From positions 124,001 to 188,000 of the forward strand of contig JANVYQ010000001.1 in the NCBI GenBank assembly GCA_030059675.1: 64,000 nucleotides of DNA, read 5' to 3'. The notes beneath the pieces are model-generated. The model saw nothing but the letters and a program-made list of their open reading frames with translations, was not told the origin of the DNA and ran no database searches. Positions 1,015-51,700 of this stretch are shown one piece after another (position 1 is the first letter of the stretch; every line of letters starts with the position of its first letter). This DNA is from Candidatus Pelearchaeum maunauluense. Its GTDB lineage: Archaea; Thermoproteota; Nitrososphaeria_A; Caldarchaeales; Caldarchaeaceae. A program made the translations under genes and the position numbers.

Positions 1015-2754
1015 CTATTGGGCTGGCTTGACGGCGGCAGCCTTCGCTCTGCTCAGCGCCTTGAGCAACAGCGCGAACATCACTATTCCTAGTATGAACA
1101 TTATTACGCCGACGACCACCGAGAAGCCGTTAATCGCCTGCACAGCGCCTATCCCAGCGGCTTCCTTCAAGATGTTCTGCGTCGGATGCAGCAGCATAGC
1201 CTGCGTGGTAGCTACGAAGAATACATAGACCTGATACGCTATAGCCGCGAGCGTCGTAATCATCATGAATATTCCTGGTATCAGCGAGTATGATGATGGC
1301 TTTCTCTGCTGTAGTAGGTAGACCGCGACTATTGTGAGGGCGAAGCCTGCGAGGAGCTGGTTTGTTCCTCCGAAGTAGAGCCAGATGTTTATCCAGCTTC
1401 CAGTGAGGACGAACGCTATAGGCAGGACGAACCCTAGGACCGACGCAACATACTTGTTTCCTAGTATGCTTAGTGATGTGCCGCCGAAGACTTCAGCCAT
1501 GACTACGCGCCAATATCTTCCGAGGATTGTCATTATGGTGATGGCCATGAAGACCATGTAGATGGAGAAGAATGTGCTGATGAATGGCGCTGCTGCCTCT
1601 CCTCCTGCTATCGGTGCGACGAGCTTCGTGGCGCCTTGCGGGAATGTGTCTGGGCTTACGCTCACAGGTGCTAGGACAACCCAAGCCGCGAGGGAGGTTA
1701 GGCCTACTGTGTTCTCCGTTAGCATGGCTCCAGCGCCCACAGGCCTGGCGTCAGTCTCAACGTCTAGCTGTCTAGACGAGATGCCCGTACTGATGAGGCT
1801 ATGCCAGCCAGAGATTGCTCCGCACGCGATAGATACGAAGAGCGCTGGCCATAGAGGCCCAGAGCTAAACGTGCCTTCAAAGCCCTTGAAGGCTGGCACG
1901 GCCAGCTCTATACCCGTCAGCGGCGAGGCGAGGGCGCCAACCGCTAGGGCGATTATAGCAACGATTACTGGATAGTATGCGATGTAGTTCATGGGCGTTA
2001 TCAGCCTTGGGAGCGGCAGTAGGGCGCCGAGGAGTAGTAGGATAACTATCGGAACCAGCCAGAGCGTATATGGCGAGCCTGGTTTTCCGCCCAGCGTTAG
2101 GGAGCCTGGTGGAGGCCATGCGAAGAGTGTTCCGACGATTATCCCAACCACCAGCAGGGCTATGGCCAATGCCGTTACTGCTAGTATGTTCATCCTGACG
2201 TTGAAGATCAGGTGTCCCGTGATGAAGGAGGCAGCAACTAGGAAGAGGAGAGTCCAGAAGGAGCTTGGGAATACATCTATGACCACCGCGACGACGTAGA
2301 TGAAGGCGGCGTTGATTAGCAGGAAGTAGAAGAGGAGGAAGCCCAGCAGTAGTTTTCGCGCGGTCGGGCCTATTAGCTCGTAAGCCAGCGGGCCGAAGGA
2401 CTTGCCCTCATTCCTCACCGAGAGGAAGAGGGCGCTGTAGTCCTGTACCCAGCCTATGAGCAGCGCGGCGAAGATAATCCAGAGGAACGCGGGCAGCCAG
2501 CCGAAGATTAGCGCTATGCCAGGCCCCAGTATCGGGCCCAGCGCGGCTATGCTGTTGAACTGGAAGCCGTATAGCACATAGCGCCCCACTGGGAAGAACT
2601 CCACGCCATCCGTGTACATGTGTGCTGGCGTGGGCCTGGCGGGGTCTGGCTGCCATATCTTGCGGTCTATCGCTTTGCTATATCCCCAGTACGCGAGGGC
2701 GTAGATTAGCAGGCCGACGGCGACGAGAGTAAAAGGTGTGTTGTGTATTGCCAC
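1015..2754 (-). CDS. cstA: CstA-family carbon starvation protein (peptide/pyruvate transporter)
   Basis: A 579-residue polytopic membrane protein with about 14 hydrophobic segments. The N-terminal region (VEFFPVGRYVLYGFQFNSIAA, then GPILGPGIALIFGWLPA and a WVQDYSALFLSVRNEGKSFG loop) is characteristic of the CstA/BtsT family, which takes up peptides or pyruvate in bacteria; the archaeal substrate is not established. Length is within the family range for the short form. The start is a GTG at 2754. A minus-strand TATA-like element (GCTTAAAAAG, 2769-2778) is close and a second (2799-2812) lies at better spacing. It is monocistronic and divergent from the gene at 2874. Confidence 0.9.
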   Translation of the reverse strand: MAIHNTPFTLVAVGLLIYALAYWGYSKAIDRKIWQPDPARPTPAHMYTDGVEFFPVGRYVLYGFQFNSIAALGPILGPGIALIFGWLPAFLWIIFAALLIGWVQDYSALFLSVRNEGKSFGPLAYELIGPTARKLLLGFLLFYFLLINAAFIYVVAVVIDVFPSSFWTLLFLVAASFITGHLIFNVRMNILAVTALAIALLVVGIIVGTLFAWPPPGSLTLGGKPGSPYTLWLVPIVILLLLGALLPLPRLITPMNYIAYYPVIVAIIALAVGALASPLTGIELAVPAFKGFEGTFSSGPLWPALFVSIACGAISGWHSLISTGISSRQLDVETDARPVGAGAMLTENTVGLTSLAAWVVLAPVSVSPDTFPQGATKLVAPIAGGEAAAPFISTFFSIYMVFMAITIMTILGRYWRVVMAEVFGGTSLSILGNKYVASVLGFVLPIAFVLTGSWINIWLYFGGTNQLLAGFALTIVAVYLLQQRKPSSYSLIPGIFMMITTLAAIAYQVYVFFVATTQAMLLHPTQNILKEAAGIGAVQAINGFSVVVGVIMFILGIVMFALLLKALSRAKAAAVKPAQ

Positions 2755-2768
2755 GGCCTTTTTCCCTC

Positions 2769-2812
2769 TCTTTTTAAGCGTTAATCGCTACTGAATTCTA
2801 TATAAAATTTTT
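2769..2812 (-). promoter_or_regulatory. AT-rich promoter region of cstA
   Basis: The 119 bases between cstA and the divergent gene at 2874 are strongly AT-rich. On the minus strand they contain TATA-like boxes at 2769-2778 and 2799-2812 (AAATTTTATATAG). The latter lies about 50 bases before the GTG start, leaving a short leader. The same AT tract could also serve the plus-strand gene. No operator repeat is obvious. Confidence 0.5.
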
Positions 2813-2873
2813 AAAATCTTTTAAAATCACTACAAATCACAAAAAGTTAAAACTTAAAAATGATGACGCAGGT

Positions 2874-3440
2874 ATGACGCCAAGCCTTGAGAATGAGATT
2901 TTTTCCAACAATTCCCAGGTGAGGTGTTTATGTTTGGATGAAAAATTCGTTGAGCATATCTTATCTGTCGGCAATCCTGTCCTTGGTGTTTTCCGCTACC
3001 TGGTTCTCCAGCTCCCTGAGGGCTGGGTTGTTAAGAGTAGCGAGATACCTCCAGAAGTTTCATACACAACAGAGTATAATGGCGTTGGATATGTTGTGGA
3101 TGGGCTCACCCATCATTACATTACCAGCGTGCTTGGTGAGGAGACTCTACAACTAACGATAAGGTGTAACAGGATTAGGGGCGAGCTCGGCGTGAATACG
3201 CGGGGCTTGGGTAGCTATTCGCTTGGCAGAACACAGGTAGCTGGACATTCATGCGTCTATGTTTATGGTGAGAAGCTGGTGGGGTTCTTCAGGAAGGAGA
3301 GGATGCGCTATCTCGCTATGGTCTTTGATTGCGGCTTTACGGGTAGGCGTATAGAGCTACGCCTCTTGGGGAGATACTCAAGCGGCGCCGCTATGGAGAG
3401 GCTTATCCCAGCGTTAGAGCAGAGCCGTTGCCACGGCTAA
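2874..3440 (+). CDS. Hypothetical protein, probably paired with the next gene
   Basis: A 188-residue soluble-looking protein that I do not recognise. It has no signal peptide or clear membrane helix, mixed alpha/beta composition, and several cysteines (about residues 18, 20, 117 and 126) without a recognisable metal motif. The ATG at 2874 is the first usable start. The ORF overlaps the next gene by 13 bases, so the two are likely translationally coupled and may act together. Upstream AT-rich DNA (2799-2812, 2851-2860) can supply the promoter. No database-type call is justified. Confidence 0.6.
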   Translation: MTPSLENEIFSNNSQVRCLCLDEKFVEHILSVGNPVLGVFRYLVLQLPEGWVVKSSEIPPEVSYTTEYNGVGYVVDGLTHHYITSVLGEETLQLTIRCNRIRGELGVNTRGLGSYSLGRTQVAGHSCVYVYGEKLVGFFRKERMRYLAMVFDCGFTGRRIELRLLGRYSSGAAMERLIPALEQSRCHG

Positions 3441-12646: not shown

Positions 12647-14080
12647 ATGATTGAGCGCGCAGAGATGCAGGAGATAGCCAAACGCTACCGCGAGCCTGTG
12701 GAGCTAATACTGGGCTCACACTCAGCGCTTGACGCGCGTTCAGGAGCGCGAAACTACGGGCTACGCTCAATAATATACACGACACGCGGCAGGGCGATAA
12801 TCTACCTCCAGAACATAATCGTGGGCAAGCCGCGTGAGGAGCTGGAAGACATCCCAGAAATATGCAGGCGCGACGTAGCGGTATGCGAAGACCCCGCAGA
12901 CCTAAAGCGCAGGAAGGAATGGAGCCTCGCAATCCTAGTTCTGGACAGGTATGACGAGATTCTCAAATACGTTGACGAGCTGGTTGAGCTGGAGTGCGTG
13001 CAAGTCCCCAACAGGGCGTTCTCCGTCTACGTTGGGGGAGATGAGCGATGCAGCCTGATAGAGGAGAGATTCGCCGTCCCCATACTGGGCTCTAGGAAGC
13101 TCCTAAAAGTGGAGAACAGGGGGGAGATTGAGCGGGATTACTACTGGTTTGCCGAGAAGGCTGGGATACCCACGCCCAAGAAGTATAGCTTCGAGGTCTC
13201 TGGCAGGGGTATTAGGTTCCGCGAGCCCATGGATGAGCCTATGCTGCTGAAGGCCGAACACGCCAAGAGGGAGTTTGAGCGCGTCTTCATCTTCGCGGCG
13301 GACTCTGAAGACCTTGAGGAGAAGGTGGAGAAGGAGGTTGAGGCAGGCAACCTGGGCAGGGAGCAGCTTGAGAACGCGCGGGTTGAGCAGATAGTCCTAG
13401 GCCCCCACGCCAACTTCAACTTCTTCTACTCACCGCTCAACGCAGGCGAGGAATGGGGAGACGTTGACGACGCACTAGCAAGGCTACACGGCCTAACGAT
13501 AGAACAAGCAAGGAAATGCCTAGCCAACGAGCTCCTCTCAATAGACGAGAGGCGCGAGAGCATACTAGACGGCCTAACGCGGATGCCGCTCTCGGTGAGG
13601 AGGAAGATAGAAGAGAAGACCATACCCTCGTTTGAGGTAACGCTCCACTCCATGGTTAGTATGCGCGAGTCCCTGCTTAAGGACGTGCTCAAGTGCGCTG
13701 ACGCGCTACTTCTAACGCTCGCGGAGCATGAGGAGCCTGGGATAATAGGGGCATGGTGCTTGCAGACCATAATAACATGGGATAAGGCAAGCAAATACGG
13801 CTACACACCCACAACCAAGCTAATATACACAACAACAGGCGAAGCAGCAAGGCCAGAGGACTACGGACTATACGACGCACCCACACAAGAAGTGGTGATG
13901 CACATAACAGTAACCCAAGACGTGGCACTACGCCACGGCGGCGGAACAAACGTTCACATGGGAATAGGAGCACAATACGCCAATGCCAGATACCAACACC
14001 AAATGAGCACAGGCGATAGGATAGCATTAGAGATCAAGAGGGCCATGAAATATAAAAGACTTGACGAATTAGTTACTTGA
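12647..14080 (+). CDS. purP: PurP-family formate-dependent FAICAR synthetase, long form
   Basis: A 477-residue ATP-grasp enzyme of the PurP family, which in archaea formylates AICAR with formate and ATP in purine synthesis. Family marks are the N-terminal LGSHSALDARSGARNYGLRS, the VLGPHANFNFFYSPL segment, the acidic EEWGDVDDA stretch and the C-terminal RHGGGTNVHMGIGAQY...STGDRIALEI. PurP is usually about 340-370 residues. The excess appears to lie in the middle (roughly residues 225-240 and 275-340) and could mark a paralogue with another substrate. A TATA-like GATAATATTA (about 12609) is 30-35 bases before ATG 12647. The last 12 bases overlap a methyltransferase remnant on the opposite strand. 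Confidence 0.82.
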   Translation: MIERAEMQEIAKRYREPVELILGSHSALDARSGARNYGLRSIIYTTRGRAIIYLQNIIVGKPREELEDIPEICRRDVAVCEDPADLKRRKEWSLAILVLDRYDEILKYVDELVELECVQVPNRAFSVYVGGDERCSLIEERFAVPILGSRKLLKVENRGEIERDYYWFAEKAGIPTPKKYSFEVSGRGIRFREPMDEPMLLKAEHAKREFERVFIFAADSEDLEEKVEKEVEAGNLGREQLENARVEQIVLGPHANFNFFYSPLNAGEEWGDVDDALARLHGLTIEQARKCLANELLSIDERRESILDGLTRMPLSVRRKIEEKTIPSFEVTLHSMVSMRESLLKDVLKCADALLLTLAEHEEPGIIGAWCLQTIITWDKASKYGYTPTTKLIYTTTGEAARPEDYGLYDAPTQEVVMHITVTQDVALRHGGGTNVHMGIGAQYANARYQHQMSTGDRIALEIKRAMKYKRLDELVT

Positions 14081-14257
14081 TTTCTTCGCAAAAATACATC
14101 GATAATTACTTCCTTTAATTAATCTAAATCCACGCGACTCTAACCATTCTTTCCCACGAAGATAGTTTTGCTTATTATGAAACTCTATCAATACGATTTT
14201 AACTAGATTATTGAGCAACGTTTCACTTCCTTTTAGAACTTCAAACTGGTAGATTCT
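14069..14257 (-). pseudogene. 3' remnant of an FkbM-type methyltransferase gene
   Basis: An open minus-strand frame of 62 codons without a start. It reads VLKGSETLLNNLVKIVLIEFHN, continues to a GFRLIKGSNYRCIFAKK end and stops at TAA 14069-14071. This is the expected C-terminal end of FkbM-family SAM methyltransferases (typically EVLKGAEKLL..IVIEVHN..GF....IFAKK). All upstream parts, including the SAM-binding core, are missing: homology stops at about 14257, just before the nucleotidyltransferase gene at 14275. The DNA is much more AT-rich than its neighbours. Probably the scar of a rearrangement or insertion. Confidence 0.68.
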
Positions 14258-14274
14258 AGCACTATAGAAGGTGC

Positions 14275-14622
14275 TTGAAGATATCTGAGTTTGACGCTGT
14301 TGTTGAGAGCGCTGGGCGTAGGCTTGCTTACTTGAATAACTGGAGGGAGGCCGCTGGTAAAATTCGCGAGATTGTTATGGAGTTTTATCCAGATGCGCGT
14401 GTCTTTGTTTTTGGTTCTGTTTTGAGCGGCAGGATCACCGCGGCCAGCGATATTGATTTGCTGGTGATACGTGGGGAGGATGCGCGTAGGGTTGACTCGC
14501 TGGTAAGGGCTGAGGCTTGGCGCCGCATGCCGTATTGCCCAGCCCCGCTACACTTCGCGACCGAGCGGGAGTTTAGCCGTTGGTATATGCGTTTCATAGA
14601 CAAATTTGTGGAGGTGGTGTAG
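14275..14622 (+). CDS. Minimal nucleotidyltransferase (MNT)
   Basis: A 115-residue DNA polymerase beta-fold nucleotidyltransferase with the hallmark FGSVLSGRITAASDIDLLVI (GSx10DxD, about residues 42-61). Proteins of this size usually act as the antitoxin of a HEPN-MNT pair by AMPylating the HEPN toxin. No HEPN gene lies on either side: upstream is the methyltransferase remnant, downstream the convergent glnK. The start is a TTG at 14275 followed by AAG. Either an orphan antitoxin left after rearrangement or an independent nucleotidyltransferase. Confidence 0.8.
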   Translation: MKISEFDAVVESAGRRLAYLNNWREAAGKIREIVMEFYPDARVFVFGSVLSGRITAASDIDLLVIRGEDARRVDSLVRAEAWRRMPYCPAPLHFATEREFSRWYMRFIDKFVEVV

Positions 14623-14624
14623 TT

Positions 14625-14966
14625 TTATTTCAGCGCTTTGCGGCCGCGTTCTCCTGTCCGTATTCTAACAGCATCCTCCACGTGGAGGATTATTATCTTC
14701 CCGTCTCCAATCTCACCAGTCTTGGACGATTCCTTGATTGTCTCCAGAACACGCTCAACCTCATCATCCTCTACTATGACCTCAAGCTTCAGCTTTGGTA
14801 GCATGTCTATACGATATTCATGGCCCCTCACTATCCAGCTAATCCCCTCCTGCAGCCCCCTTCCCCTGACCTCGTAGACTGTTAGGCCTCCGCAGCCTAT
14901 GCTTTTCAGCGCTTTCTTCACATCGTCAAGCTTTTCGGGCCGTATTATTGCTTGGATTAGCTTCAC
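14625..14966 (-). CDS. glnK: P-II nitrogen regulatory protein GlnK
   Basis: A 113-residue trimeric P-II signal protein: N-terminal KLIQAIIRPEKLDDVKKAL, T-loop start VRGRGLQEG, T-loop end RGHEYRIDMLPKLKLEVIV with the Tyr at the position modified in proteobacteria, and B-loop KTGEIGDGKIIIL for ATP. It senses 2-oxoglutarate, ATP and ADP and blocks the Amt pore. It lies 15 bases downstream of amt on the same strand, the usual amt-glnK arrangement, behind glnA. No uridylyltransferase is seen, so control is presumably by ligand binding only. The 3' end is 2 bases from the convergent MNT gene. Confidence 0.95.
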   Translation of the reverse strand: MKLIQAIIRPEKLDDVKKALKSIGCGGLTVYEVRGRGLQEGISWIVRGHEYRIDMLPKLKLEVIVEDDEVERVLETIKESSKTGEIGDGKIIILHVEDAVRIRTGERGRKALK

Positions 14967-14981
14967 CGACGCATCACCTCT

Positions 14982-16202
14982 CTAGGAGTATGCTGTCTCC
15001 GCGTGCTGTGTGAGGTCTAGGCCCATCATCTCCTCGCGCGGCGTTACCCTAAGCCCGACAGTCTTGTCCAGTAGCTTGAGTATGGCTAGCGTTGCTGTGA
15101 AGGAGTATGCCCATGTTACCCCGACGGCGGTGAGCTGAACTAGAACCTGTGCGGCGTTGCCGTAGAGCGCTCCAGCAGCCCCTCCCACCGCTGGGTCGGC
15201 GAATATTCCCGTAGCTATCGCGCCCCAGGTTCCGCCTATGCCGTGTATCCCCCAAACGTCCAGCGAGTCGTCAATCTTCAGCCTTGAGCGGAGCATTACT
15301 GCCAGGTAGCAGAGAACGCCTGCTCCGAAGCCTATCGTGAGCGCGCCCAGCACGTTTACGAAGCCTGCCGCTGGGGTTATGGCTACAAGCCCAGCTATGG
15401 CACCGCTGGCCGTGCCTATTATGCTCGCCCTCCCGCGGTGGAGCCAGCTCATCACCATCCACGCCAACGCTGCTGCGCTTGCGGCTGTGTTGGTCGTAAC
15501 GAACGCCGCGGTAGCCTGCATCCCCGCGCTCAGCGCGCTCCCAGCGTTGAAGCCGAACCAGCCAAACCAGAGGAGAACGGCTCCAAGAACAACGTATGTT
15601 ACGTTGCTGGGCTCCATGCTCGTGGTCCCGTATCCCAGTCTCCTGCCCAGCACTAGGGCAGTAGCGAGTGCTGCGACGCCTGAGTTTATATGAACAACCG
15701 TCCCGCCCGCAAAATCTAACGCGCCCAGGTTGCTTAGCCAGCCTCCAGAAGCCCAGACCCAGTGGGCTATGAGGTCGTAGACGAATTTGGCCCAGAGTAT
15801 TATGAAGAGGAGGAGGGCGCCAAACCTTATGCGCTCAACCACGGCTCCTATTATGAGGGCTGGAGTGATTATCGCGAACATTCCCTGGAATATCATGAAT
15901 GCTTGGTGTGGTATGGTCTCTGCGTAGTCTGGGTTTGGCTCCAGTCCCACGCCGTTTAGGCCCAGCCACTCAAGACCGCCTATAAGCCCCATCTTGTCTG
16001 GGCCGAAGGCTAGCGAGTATCCCCAGAGAACCCACTGGACGCTTACGAGAGCAACTGTAGCGAAGCAGGCCATTATCGTGTTGGCTAGGTTCTTGCGCCT
16101 CACTAGGCCGCCGTAGAAGAAGCCCAGAGCGGGGGTCATCAGTAGGACCAGCGCAGCCGAGAGAAGCACCCACGCTGTATTCCCAGCGTCAACCCCCGCC
16201 AT
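14982..16202 (-). CDS. amt: Ammonium transporter Amt
   Basis: A 406-residue Amt/Mep/Rh channel with 11 expected membrane helices. Visible family marks are the GFFYGGLVRRKN loop after TM1, the first pore His region (IAHWVWASGGWL), the DFAGGTVVHINSG signature with its conserved Asp and His, and the IHGIGGTWGAIATGIFA segment with the second pore His. The transporter moves ammonium across the cytoplasmic membrane and is inhibited by GlnK. The ATG at 16202 lies 25 bases after glnA, so glnA-amt-glnK is read as one operon. Confidence 0.96.
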   Translation of the reverse strand: MAGVDAGNTAWVLLSAALVLLMTPALGFFYGGLVRRKNLANTIMACFATVALVSVQWVLWGYSLAFGPDKMGLIGGLEWLGLNGVGLEPNPDYAETIPHQAFMIFQGMFAIITPALIIGAVVERIRFGALLLFIILWAKFVYDLIAHWVWASGGWLSNLGALDFAGGTVVHINSGVAALATALVLGRRLGYGTTSMEPSNVTYVVLGAVLLWFGWFGFNAGSALSAGMQATAAFVTTNTAASAAALAWMVMSWLHRGRASIIGTASGAIAGLVAITPAAGFVNVLGALTIGFGAGVLCYLAVMLRSRLKIDDSLDVWGIHGIGGTWGAIATGIFADPAVGGAAGALYGNAAQVLVQLTAVGVTWAYSFTATLAILKLLDKTVGLRVTPREEMMGLDLTQHAETAYS

Positions 16203-26196: not shown

Positions 26197-26442
26197 TTGA
26201 AGGAAGACCTGAGACTCAAAATTGACCCTAGGGGGCGACTAAGCATACCGTCGGACATAAGGGATGAGGTAGGTGATGAAGTAATACTTAGAAGAACACC
26301 CGAAGGCTTCCTACTCATACCAGCTAAACAGCATAACTTCTTGGAAGAGTTTCGCCGCATTATCTCATCCGAGCCGCAAAGAACGGGAAAACCTGAAAAC
26401 TGGGACCCGAAGAAGATGAAATCAGTATGGTTAGGGGACTAA
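26197..26442 (+). CDS. vapB: AbrB/VapB-type antitoxin
   Basis: An 81-residue protein with an N-terminal SpoVT/AbrB-like DNA-binding swapped hairpin (LRLKIDPRGRLSIPSDIRDEV, EVILRRTPEGFLLIPA) and a C-terminal toxin-binding tail rich in basic and aromatic residues (about 50-81). It starts at TTG 26197 followed by AAG; a TATA-like CTTAAAC (about 26169) suggests a leaderless transcript. The stop is 6 bases before the ATG of the VapC gene. It would neutralise the PIN toxin and repress its own promoter. Confidence 0.85.
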   Translation: MKEDLRLKIDPRGRLSIPSDIRDEVGDEVILRRTPEGFLLIPAKQHNFLEEFRRIISSEPQRTGKPENWDPKKMKSVWLGD

Positions 26443-26448
26443 GTGCAT

Positions 26449-26874
26449 ATGGTTATTGGACTTGATACAAATGTCTTATGCTACGCGCTTGACCCCGCAT
26501 ATCCAGAGCATACCAAACTTAAGGGACTTCTTCTAAAATTATCTCCTGATAATATGCTTGCACTAAACCCAACAATCATACAAGAAGCCTATCATGTTCT
26601 AGTCTTTGGACAAAAATAGACTCCTAATGAAGCTATGAGAAAGCTGAGGATGTTACTAAAGCATCCTTACATAGTATTTTACGCTCAAAACAAGAAGATA
26701 TCAATGACGGCCCTGACCCTAGCAGCGCATTATGGTTTAGGAGGAAGAGACGCGCTTATTATCGCTAACTTTCTAACCAACAAAATACCCATAATGTATA
26801 CTCATGACCAAGAATTGCTAAAATTAGAAAAGCTTTCGTGGATAAATTTGAAATATCATTTAAAGACCCAATAA
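26449..26874 (+). pseudogene. vapC: VapC PIN-domain toxin gene with an in-frame TAG
   Basis: Reading through TAG 26617-26619 (codon 57) gives a complete PIN domain of 141 codons. Asp in GLDTNVL (residue 6), Glu in IIQEAYHVL, the stop within VFGQK-stop-TPNEAMRKL, Asp in GGRDALIIANF and Asp in THDQELLK are the four metal ligands expected for an RNA-cleaving toxin; two lie after the stop. Family members commonly have Trp at this spot, so TGG to TAG is the simplest change. Start ATG 26449 (or GTG 26443). Loss of a toxin is tolerated, so this can be a true null allele. Confidence 0.85.
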
Positions 26875-51032: not shown

Positions 51033-51239
51033 ATGACCAACTATGCAACCGTGTCCGCGCGAATTCCTAAAGACCTAAAGAAGAAAGCCGACAACCTTAA
51101 GTTAAACATAAACGAGCTGATTAGACGGGCTTTGGAGCAAGAACTTAAGAAGAAAGCAGCAGAAGTAGCAACTATATTAAGAAAGATACCCGAAGAAGAA
51201 AATGTTAAAACAATTAGAGAAGCACGCGACGTTGGATGA
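51033..51239 (+). CDS. vapB: Ribbon-helix-helix antitoxin (VapB-like)
   Basis: A 68-residue protein: N-terminal RHH strand and helices (YATVSARIPKDLKKKADNLKLNINELIRRALEQEL), then a charged toxin-binding tail (EVATILRKIPEEENVKTIREARDVG). It overlaps the VapC gene by 4 bases (ATGA), the classic antitoxin-toxin arrangement. Start ATG 51033, just past an AT-rich stretch shared with the divergent ABC operon. The region is more AT-rich than its neighbours, consistent with recent gain. Confidence 0.88.
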   Translation: MTNYATVSARIPKDLKKKADNLKLNINELIRRALEQELKKKAAEVATILRKIPEEENVKTIREARDVG

Positions 51240-51647
51240 GTTATTTACTAGATGCAAGCGGACTACTAAATCTTCTTAGAAGACTAGGTGAAGATATTAT
51301 AGACGCGGTGAAGAATCAAAATACAACAGATATAATATTGCATGAAGCAGGAAACGCGTTTTGGAAAGAATATAGTCATGGAAGGATGGAGTTAAATGAA
51401 GCCTTGAGGTCTCTGGAGTTTATCAATTTGCTTTTACGCCAGATGCATGTTATTAAGATTGAAGGCGAATGGCCGTTGTATGTGCTTGAAAATGCAGTTA
51501 AACTGCGAATAACTTTTTACGACTCAGCTTATCTTACCCAGCTCAGAAACTTGGATTTTTACGCTGGTGACGGATGATATGAAGTTGCTTAAGAAGACGC
51601 GCGGGATAGGCCTAAAAGCAACAACCAGCAAGGAATACCACTACTAA
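51236..51647 (+). pseudogene. vapC: VapC PIN toxin gene with a one-base frameshift
   Basis: The frame from ATG 51236 runs to TGA 51577 and gives 113 residues with PIN ligands Asp in LLDASGLL, Glu in ILHEAGNAFW and Asp in TFYDSAYL. The last PIN strand is out of frame: removing one T from the TTTTT run at about 51556-51560 restores DFTLVTDDMKLLKKTRG and ends at TAA 51645-51647 (about 136 residues). The fourth acidic ligand is therefore lost from the predicted product. Broken toxin with intact antitoxin. Confidence 0.83.
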
Positions 51648-51700
51648 TTCCTTTTCCGCCCAGAATGGTGGTTTCCACATATCTCACGACTAAATGGGGA

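Follow-up and report, generated by a model that had tools for sequence, protein, structure and literature searches.

An FkbM methyltransferase remnant beside a HEPN-less nucleotidyltransferase gene in an archaeal genome: a possible scar of gene decay in two steps

The HEPN-MNT modules (HepT/MntA, type VII) are toxin-antitoxin pairs in which a HEPN gene accompanies a gene for a minimal nucleotidyltransferase (MNT). According to PMC3710099, the MNT gene almost always precedes its HEPN partner. The AMPylation work of PMC7641770 concerns PF01934 pairs and not those of PF05168. Genes of this kind are also found on their own; according to PMC2701414, solo genes make up more than half of the largest toxin/antitoxin families, and a partnerless MNT alone is, therefore, unsurprising. 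Another relevant process is homology-facilitated illegitimate recombination, which is defined, for bacteria, in PMC3240628. The locus described here, from a heat-loving archaeon, touches on all of these, as an MNT gene that lacks its HEPN partner lies next to the last part of an FkbM-type methyltransferase gene.

The locus belongs to a 64-kb stretch (C2:124001-188000), hereafter the window, and sits within a 371-kb contig. The host assembly is a draft of 21 contigs, 94% complete, and the other genomes compared here are likewise drafts. The first gene of interest is a purP-like gene (12647-14080, forward strand) of 477 amino acids, which matches PF06973 and PF06849; the NCBIfam PurP models match it far under their cut-offs. 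When its last 139 residues were used as the query, no long purP-like gene was found at E<=1e-10 in the other six genomes of the family, while the gene was found in more distant, mostly AT-richer genomes. Because of this distribution, the purP-like gene may itself have been acquired horizontally. Its 3' end runs into an anomalous AT-rich tract (14024-14267), the left border of which falls at 14024-14048, within purP, and the right border at 14267/14268. The antisense frame that the preliminary description had reported between purP and the MNT gene is indeed present on the reverse strand at 14069-14257, with 62 codons and a stop. It is followed by the MNT gene (14275-14622, forward strand) and then, on the other strand, by glnB (PII; 14625-14966, PF00543), amtB and glnA. 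The glnB gene is convergent with the MNT gene, the two stops being 2 bases apart here and 4 in G001, the congener that serves for comparison below.

The antisense frame had been taken for the C-terminal end of an FkbM-type methyltransferase, and a dedicated profile bears this out. The profile was built from 27 archaeal ORFs taken at loci with a PF05050 match; these were picked with a preliminary FkbM profile and without the 62-codon frame, and the rows omit L049, from which the best database match of the frame comes. It recognizes residues 5-51 of the frame (14105-14245, FEVLKG to LIKGSN) with 20.7 bits, the best of 10,000 same-residue shuffles reaching 10.6, and this similarity is present though Pfam and NCBIfam miss the frame. 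The match opens at FEVLKG, immediately past the DVEG motif of the family. As for the other end, the homology had been said to stop about 18 bases before the MNT start; counted to the TTG at 14275, the profile match ends 29 bases before it, and the end of the frame leaves 17. The reading frame as such stays open for 101 codons, the extra part running antisense through the MNT gene, outside the FkbM match.

The general databases give a fainter picture. The Pfam and NCBIfam searches of the frame returned 0 families at E<=1, and the PDB sequence search returned none at E<=10. In PHROGs, there is a weak match to a 'methyltransferase' family (E 0.022), which covers profile positions 168-221 of 244, that is, its C-terminal part, and four other families match more weakly than this or near it. 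Among 398 genomes of the phylum, the frame has four non-self matches at E<0.01, all of them within FkbM ORFs; the E-values are per genome, and about four matches below this value are expected by chance across the 398. The best of them (G148, E 3.6e-4) overlaps an independently found PF05050 match. The nearest relatives share 32-40% over about 42-56 residues, with E-values that lose significance across the 398 genomes. Such low similarity, together with the empty Pfam, NCBIfam and PDB searches, is what one would see if the frame were a random coding of an AT-rich spacer and not FkbM at all. This is, nevertheless, very improbable, as the profile score stands 10 bits above the best shuffle and each of the four best database matches falls in the C-terminus of an FkbM protein.

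Conservation of the short frame in relatives would have spoken against the preliminary reading; in 60 of them, no match was found at E<=0.01. Similarly, a search for PF05050 in the eight genomes of the family, host included, gave no match at the strict limit of E<=1e-8, with a candidate in G004 staying below the limit and several of the eight genomes being incomplete. In the host genome, there was no PF05050 match at 1e-3. By sequence, then, the frame at 14069-14257 is a remnant of an FkbM gene and not a member of the family. The stump is predicted to make no methyltransferase, since it lacks the SAM-binding domain as well as the DVEG motif.

How this remnant may have come to its place is suggested by the comparison with G001, the one further member of the genus that the searches covered. 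In this congener, the order purP-MNT-glnB is kept, the MNT is likewise HEPN-less, and there is no FkbM remnant. On both sides of the site, the gene content of its contigs agrees with that of the host, the MNT gene being divided across two contig ends. From purP to the MNT ATG, the congener has 79 bases; to the matching codon, the host has 200. The BLAST similarity between the two genomes ends at 14045, inside purP, and restarts at 14268, and the purP-MNT interval of the congener shows no BLAST similarity to the tract. The last 11-18 codons of purP (from 14024-14045) fall in the anomalous tract. The terminal 54 bases of purP differ from the congener at 25 positions, whereas in the body of the gene about 8% of the bases differ, or 1-9 per 60. 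As controls, six other genes have 1-7 differences in their terminal 54 bases, and 1,999 overlapping 54-base windows drawn from six genes gave no count above 13. A methylase gene, with 39/54 in the tail and 0.73 in the body, was left out of the controls, as the two versions are of unequal length and the comparison was ungapped. Despite its AT-richness, the purP tail still ends in the purP consensus of the relatives.

The stop of the stump (14069-14071) is the antisense of a purP leucine codon, which is TTA here and CTG in the congener, as would be expected if the purP and fkbM 3' ends had arrived together. In terms of composition, 14046-14267 has 31.1% G+C, lower than any of 6,378 sampled windows of equal size (222 bp) in the 64 kb. 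Two other stretches, at 26.7 and 2.8 kb, are nearly as AT-rich (32% G+C), so the composition alone is no proof of import. Taking the borders and the odd purP tail into account as well, we read about 14024-14267 as putatively imported AT-rich DNA with convergent purP and fkbM 3' ends.

A patch of this kind may also be an artefact, an assembly or strain chimera in which 220-245 bp from another organism in a mixed sample would not be at this place in the cell. The host being a 21-contig draft is in keeping with such a chimera, and so is the finding that the tract has nothing in the rest of the host genome beyond 16-base chance-like matches. The tract is, however, placed inside a 371-kb contig with the gene order of the congener kept on both sides, and so short a piece would hardly be expected to complete purP in frame. 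A chimera is, therefore, regarded as improbable.

The search for a donor covered several sources. Of 28 purP loci, one from each of 28 other genomes, none had an fkbM gene next to purP; in 100 other genomes, the DNA of the tract gave only short chance-like matches. A plasmid source was rejected, with one 19-residue protein match (E 0.8) and none by DNA, and a phage source as well, with none by protein and one 31-base DNA match (E 0.06). From viral contigs, 11 pattern matches were obtained and none was confirmed; one 18-residue match to a Clostridia contig in a genome-contig scan was dropped as chance. The insertion of a mobile element was also considered and set aside, as 13950-14350 is without inverted repeats and its three direct repeats (8-12 bases) fail to bracket the tract. 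A structured RNA was likewise rejected, there being no Rfam match at 13500-15000. The scans for sigma-70 promoters and terminators were set aside since these models do not fit archaea.

The second peculiarity of the locus is the absence of the usual HEPN partner, which the preliminary description had pointed out. PF05168 has 13 matches in the host genome and none within the 64-kb window; there is no HEPN gene beside the MNT gene of the congener either. For the relatives of this MNT, 61 genomes were searched, 36 of them gave matches, and 23 loci of other genomes (L004-L026) were inspected. By Pfam, 16 of the 23 have a HEPN domain immediately before the MNT or fused with it, partial in two of these; the other seven comprise three with HEPN by motif only, two that start at a contig start and two without HEPN. 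The order in these related archaeal loci, with HEPN preceding MNT, is the reverse of the one called usual in PMC3710099.

In those related loci that were listed, the stop codon of HEPN falls within the MNT frame, close to its beginning. The host and the congener each have a frame in that register that closes with an overlap of this kind, with RDV* in the congener, as in L005 and L010, and EDI* here, as in L004. The HEPN-like tail seems to be about 10 codons long in the congener (EELFKVLRDV*) and 6 in the host (KVLEDI*, 14268-14288, forward strand). The comparison was made with 17 HEPN tails, namely those among 22 upstream ORFs that carry the AYI.[SA]RY motif, some of them near-duplicates. Against shuffles, the resemblance of the last 10 residues of the congener to the HEPN ends has p 0.003 when scored by maximum and p 0.043 when scored by mean, and that of the six residues of the host has p 0.014 and 0.030, respectively, for tail lengths that were selected after inspection; a 20-residue tail gives no match (p 0.13-0.20). 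It is, thus, probable on a thin signal that both species retain the final HEPN codons. If this signal is real, the longer tail of the congener would mean that the junction at 14267/14268 is not ancestral to it.

The preliminary description had tied the stump, the missing HEPN and the junction into one event, a recombination junction that deleted the rest of both modules. The data support all three elements but not the single event. An ancestor with purP, fkbM, HEPN and MNT would, on that view, have lost the 5' part of fkbM and the HEPN gene by one deletion, the congener having changed separately. The stump and the HEPN-less MNT do abut at a single junction, and HEPN normally precedes this type of MNT in related loci. 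The syntenic comparison, which found neither an FkbM remnant nor a HEPN gene in the congener, speaks differently: HEPN is missing there without any junction or FkbM scrap. The HEPN loss and the FkbM truncation seem, therefore, to be separate, and the former need not stem from the host junction. In addition, the anomalous DNA extends beyond what the preliminary description saw and reaches into the purP tail, which makes a simple two-module deletion unlikely, and the congener seems to retain the longer HEPN tail, though this signal is thin. Taken together, one deletion appears to be a rather unlikely origin of the locus.

With moderate confidence, we instead regard the locus as a scar of gene decay in two steps, that is, HEPN loss followed by the import that brought the fkbM stump. 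This confidence is lowered as the database E-values are insufficient alone and the absence of PF05050 was tested at a strict limit. In the first step, a HEPN-MNT pair downstream of purP would have lost its HEPN, so that the MNT remained, possibly with some final codons of the HEPN gene; this may have occurred before the host and the congener split, or independently in each. The toxin loss is, thus, probably separate from the recombination scar and older. The second step, in the host lineage only, would be a recombination that imported about 220-245 bp of AT-rich foreign DNA from a donor with a purP homologue and fkbM, convergent and overlapping at their 3' ends. At one end, a crossover would have taken place within the homologous tail of purP; at the other, just before the MNT gene, the DNA would have been joined without homology. 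It is this non-homologous join that would have cut fkbM to its last 50-60 codons. The MNT would have remained an intact and constrained gene. We infer the order and the polarity of these events from two species of the genus, the host and the one congener.

The MNT gene matches PF01909 with E 5.5e-9, and its GSX10DXD signature (residues 47-61) is intact; the NCBIfam MntA model gives it 19.5 bits against a cut-off of 60. Between host and congener, dN is 0.13 and dS 0.88 over 109 codons (dN/dS about 0.15), and for purP, the values are 0.016 and 0.37. By these estimates, the orphan MNT is under purifying selection, which is weaker than that on purP. The ATA at 14281, where the congener has its MNT ATG, was considered as a sign of decay; this was dropped, as the corresponding codon of L004 is ATA too. 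A glutamate kept in all 16 aligned relatives, which are a chosen subset of the 23 related loci, is proline here (codon 91, 14545-14547) and glutamine in the congener. As per PMC7641770, D71 of the Shewanella MntA binds the second Mg2+; that MntA is the partner of another HEPN family than PF05168. By position, the replaced glutamate could be the equivalent of D71 and, thus, the third metal ligand. From this replacement, we infer that the catalysis of the MNT is probably altered or lost, and the gene probably persists for a purpose other than AMPylating a neighbour.

GlnD, which belongs to the same nucleotidyltransferase superfamily as the MNT, modifies PII in other species. The orphan gene is open in both species, with the dN/dS of about 0.15 given above, and lies stop-to-stop with glnB in both, which would suit a domesticated MNT. 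Such a protein may bind or modify PII, or target in trans any one of the genome's 13 HEPN proteins. Such domestication is a long shot; within it, binding would be likelier than modification, as the replaced glutamate speaks against catalysis.

There are other AT-rich and toxin-antitoxin-like spots in the window. Between hisF and hisI (26197-26871) lies an AT-rich VapBC-like pair, in which a MazE/AbrB-type antitoxin (PF04014) is followed by a PIN-like toxin frame interrupted by an in-frame TAG at 26617-26619. The second half of this frame matches PIN with E 0.0013, under the Pfam cut-off. At the equivalent place, the congener has kept the antitoxin side and lacks about 207 bp of the toxin frame (26583-26789). 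At 51033-51650, a ribbon-helix-helix-like antitoxin ORF (PF01402, under the cut-off) is accompanied by an ORF judged PIN-like by eye, which has no Pfam match and the frame of which seems to shift near 51560; the congener matches only in the stretch beyond the pair. With the MNT gene, the window, thus, has three toxin-antitoxin-like loci with the toxin broken or absent. A further very AT-rich spot is at 2720-3440, with 32% G+C over 222 bp at 2771, beside which a 188-codon ORF (2874-3440) has no Pfam match.

On this reading, the locus is a commonplace scar left by gene decay, and it requires no new class of system. It offers a well-bounded example of how the toxin of a toxin-antitoxin pair can be lost with the antitoxin gene left in place, and also of a short foreign patch that ends up in the tail of another gene. 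The MNT, altered yet still constrained in both species, furthermore provides a test case for the roles of solo antitoxins.

Compared with the FkbM family (PF05050, Methyltransf_21), the last 47 matched residues of the stump align with the C-terminal end, past DVEG, and the difference lies in the missing SAM-binding domain and DVEG motif and in the lack of a Pfam match. The likeness to homology-facilitated illegitimate recombination would be the homologous exchange in the purP tail with a non-homologous join at the other end; here, the process is suggested for an archaeon and at one locus, where the donor searches were negative and the borders of the tract fit. With the HEPN-MNT systems, the locus shares an MNT with PF01909 and GSX10DXD, the PF05168 HEPN of the relatives overlapping the MNT start; it differs from them in having no adjacent HEPN, a replaced conserved glutamate and an MntA model score below the cut-off. 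Like the solo toxin and antitoxin genes, it has an antitoxin-type gene without a partner, but in this case a lost partner is suggested by the related loci and by its possible end codons.
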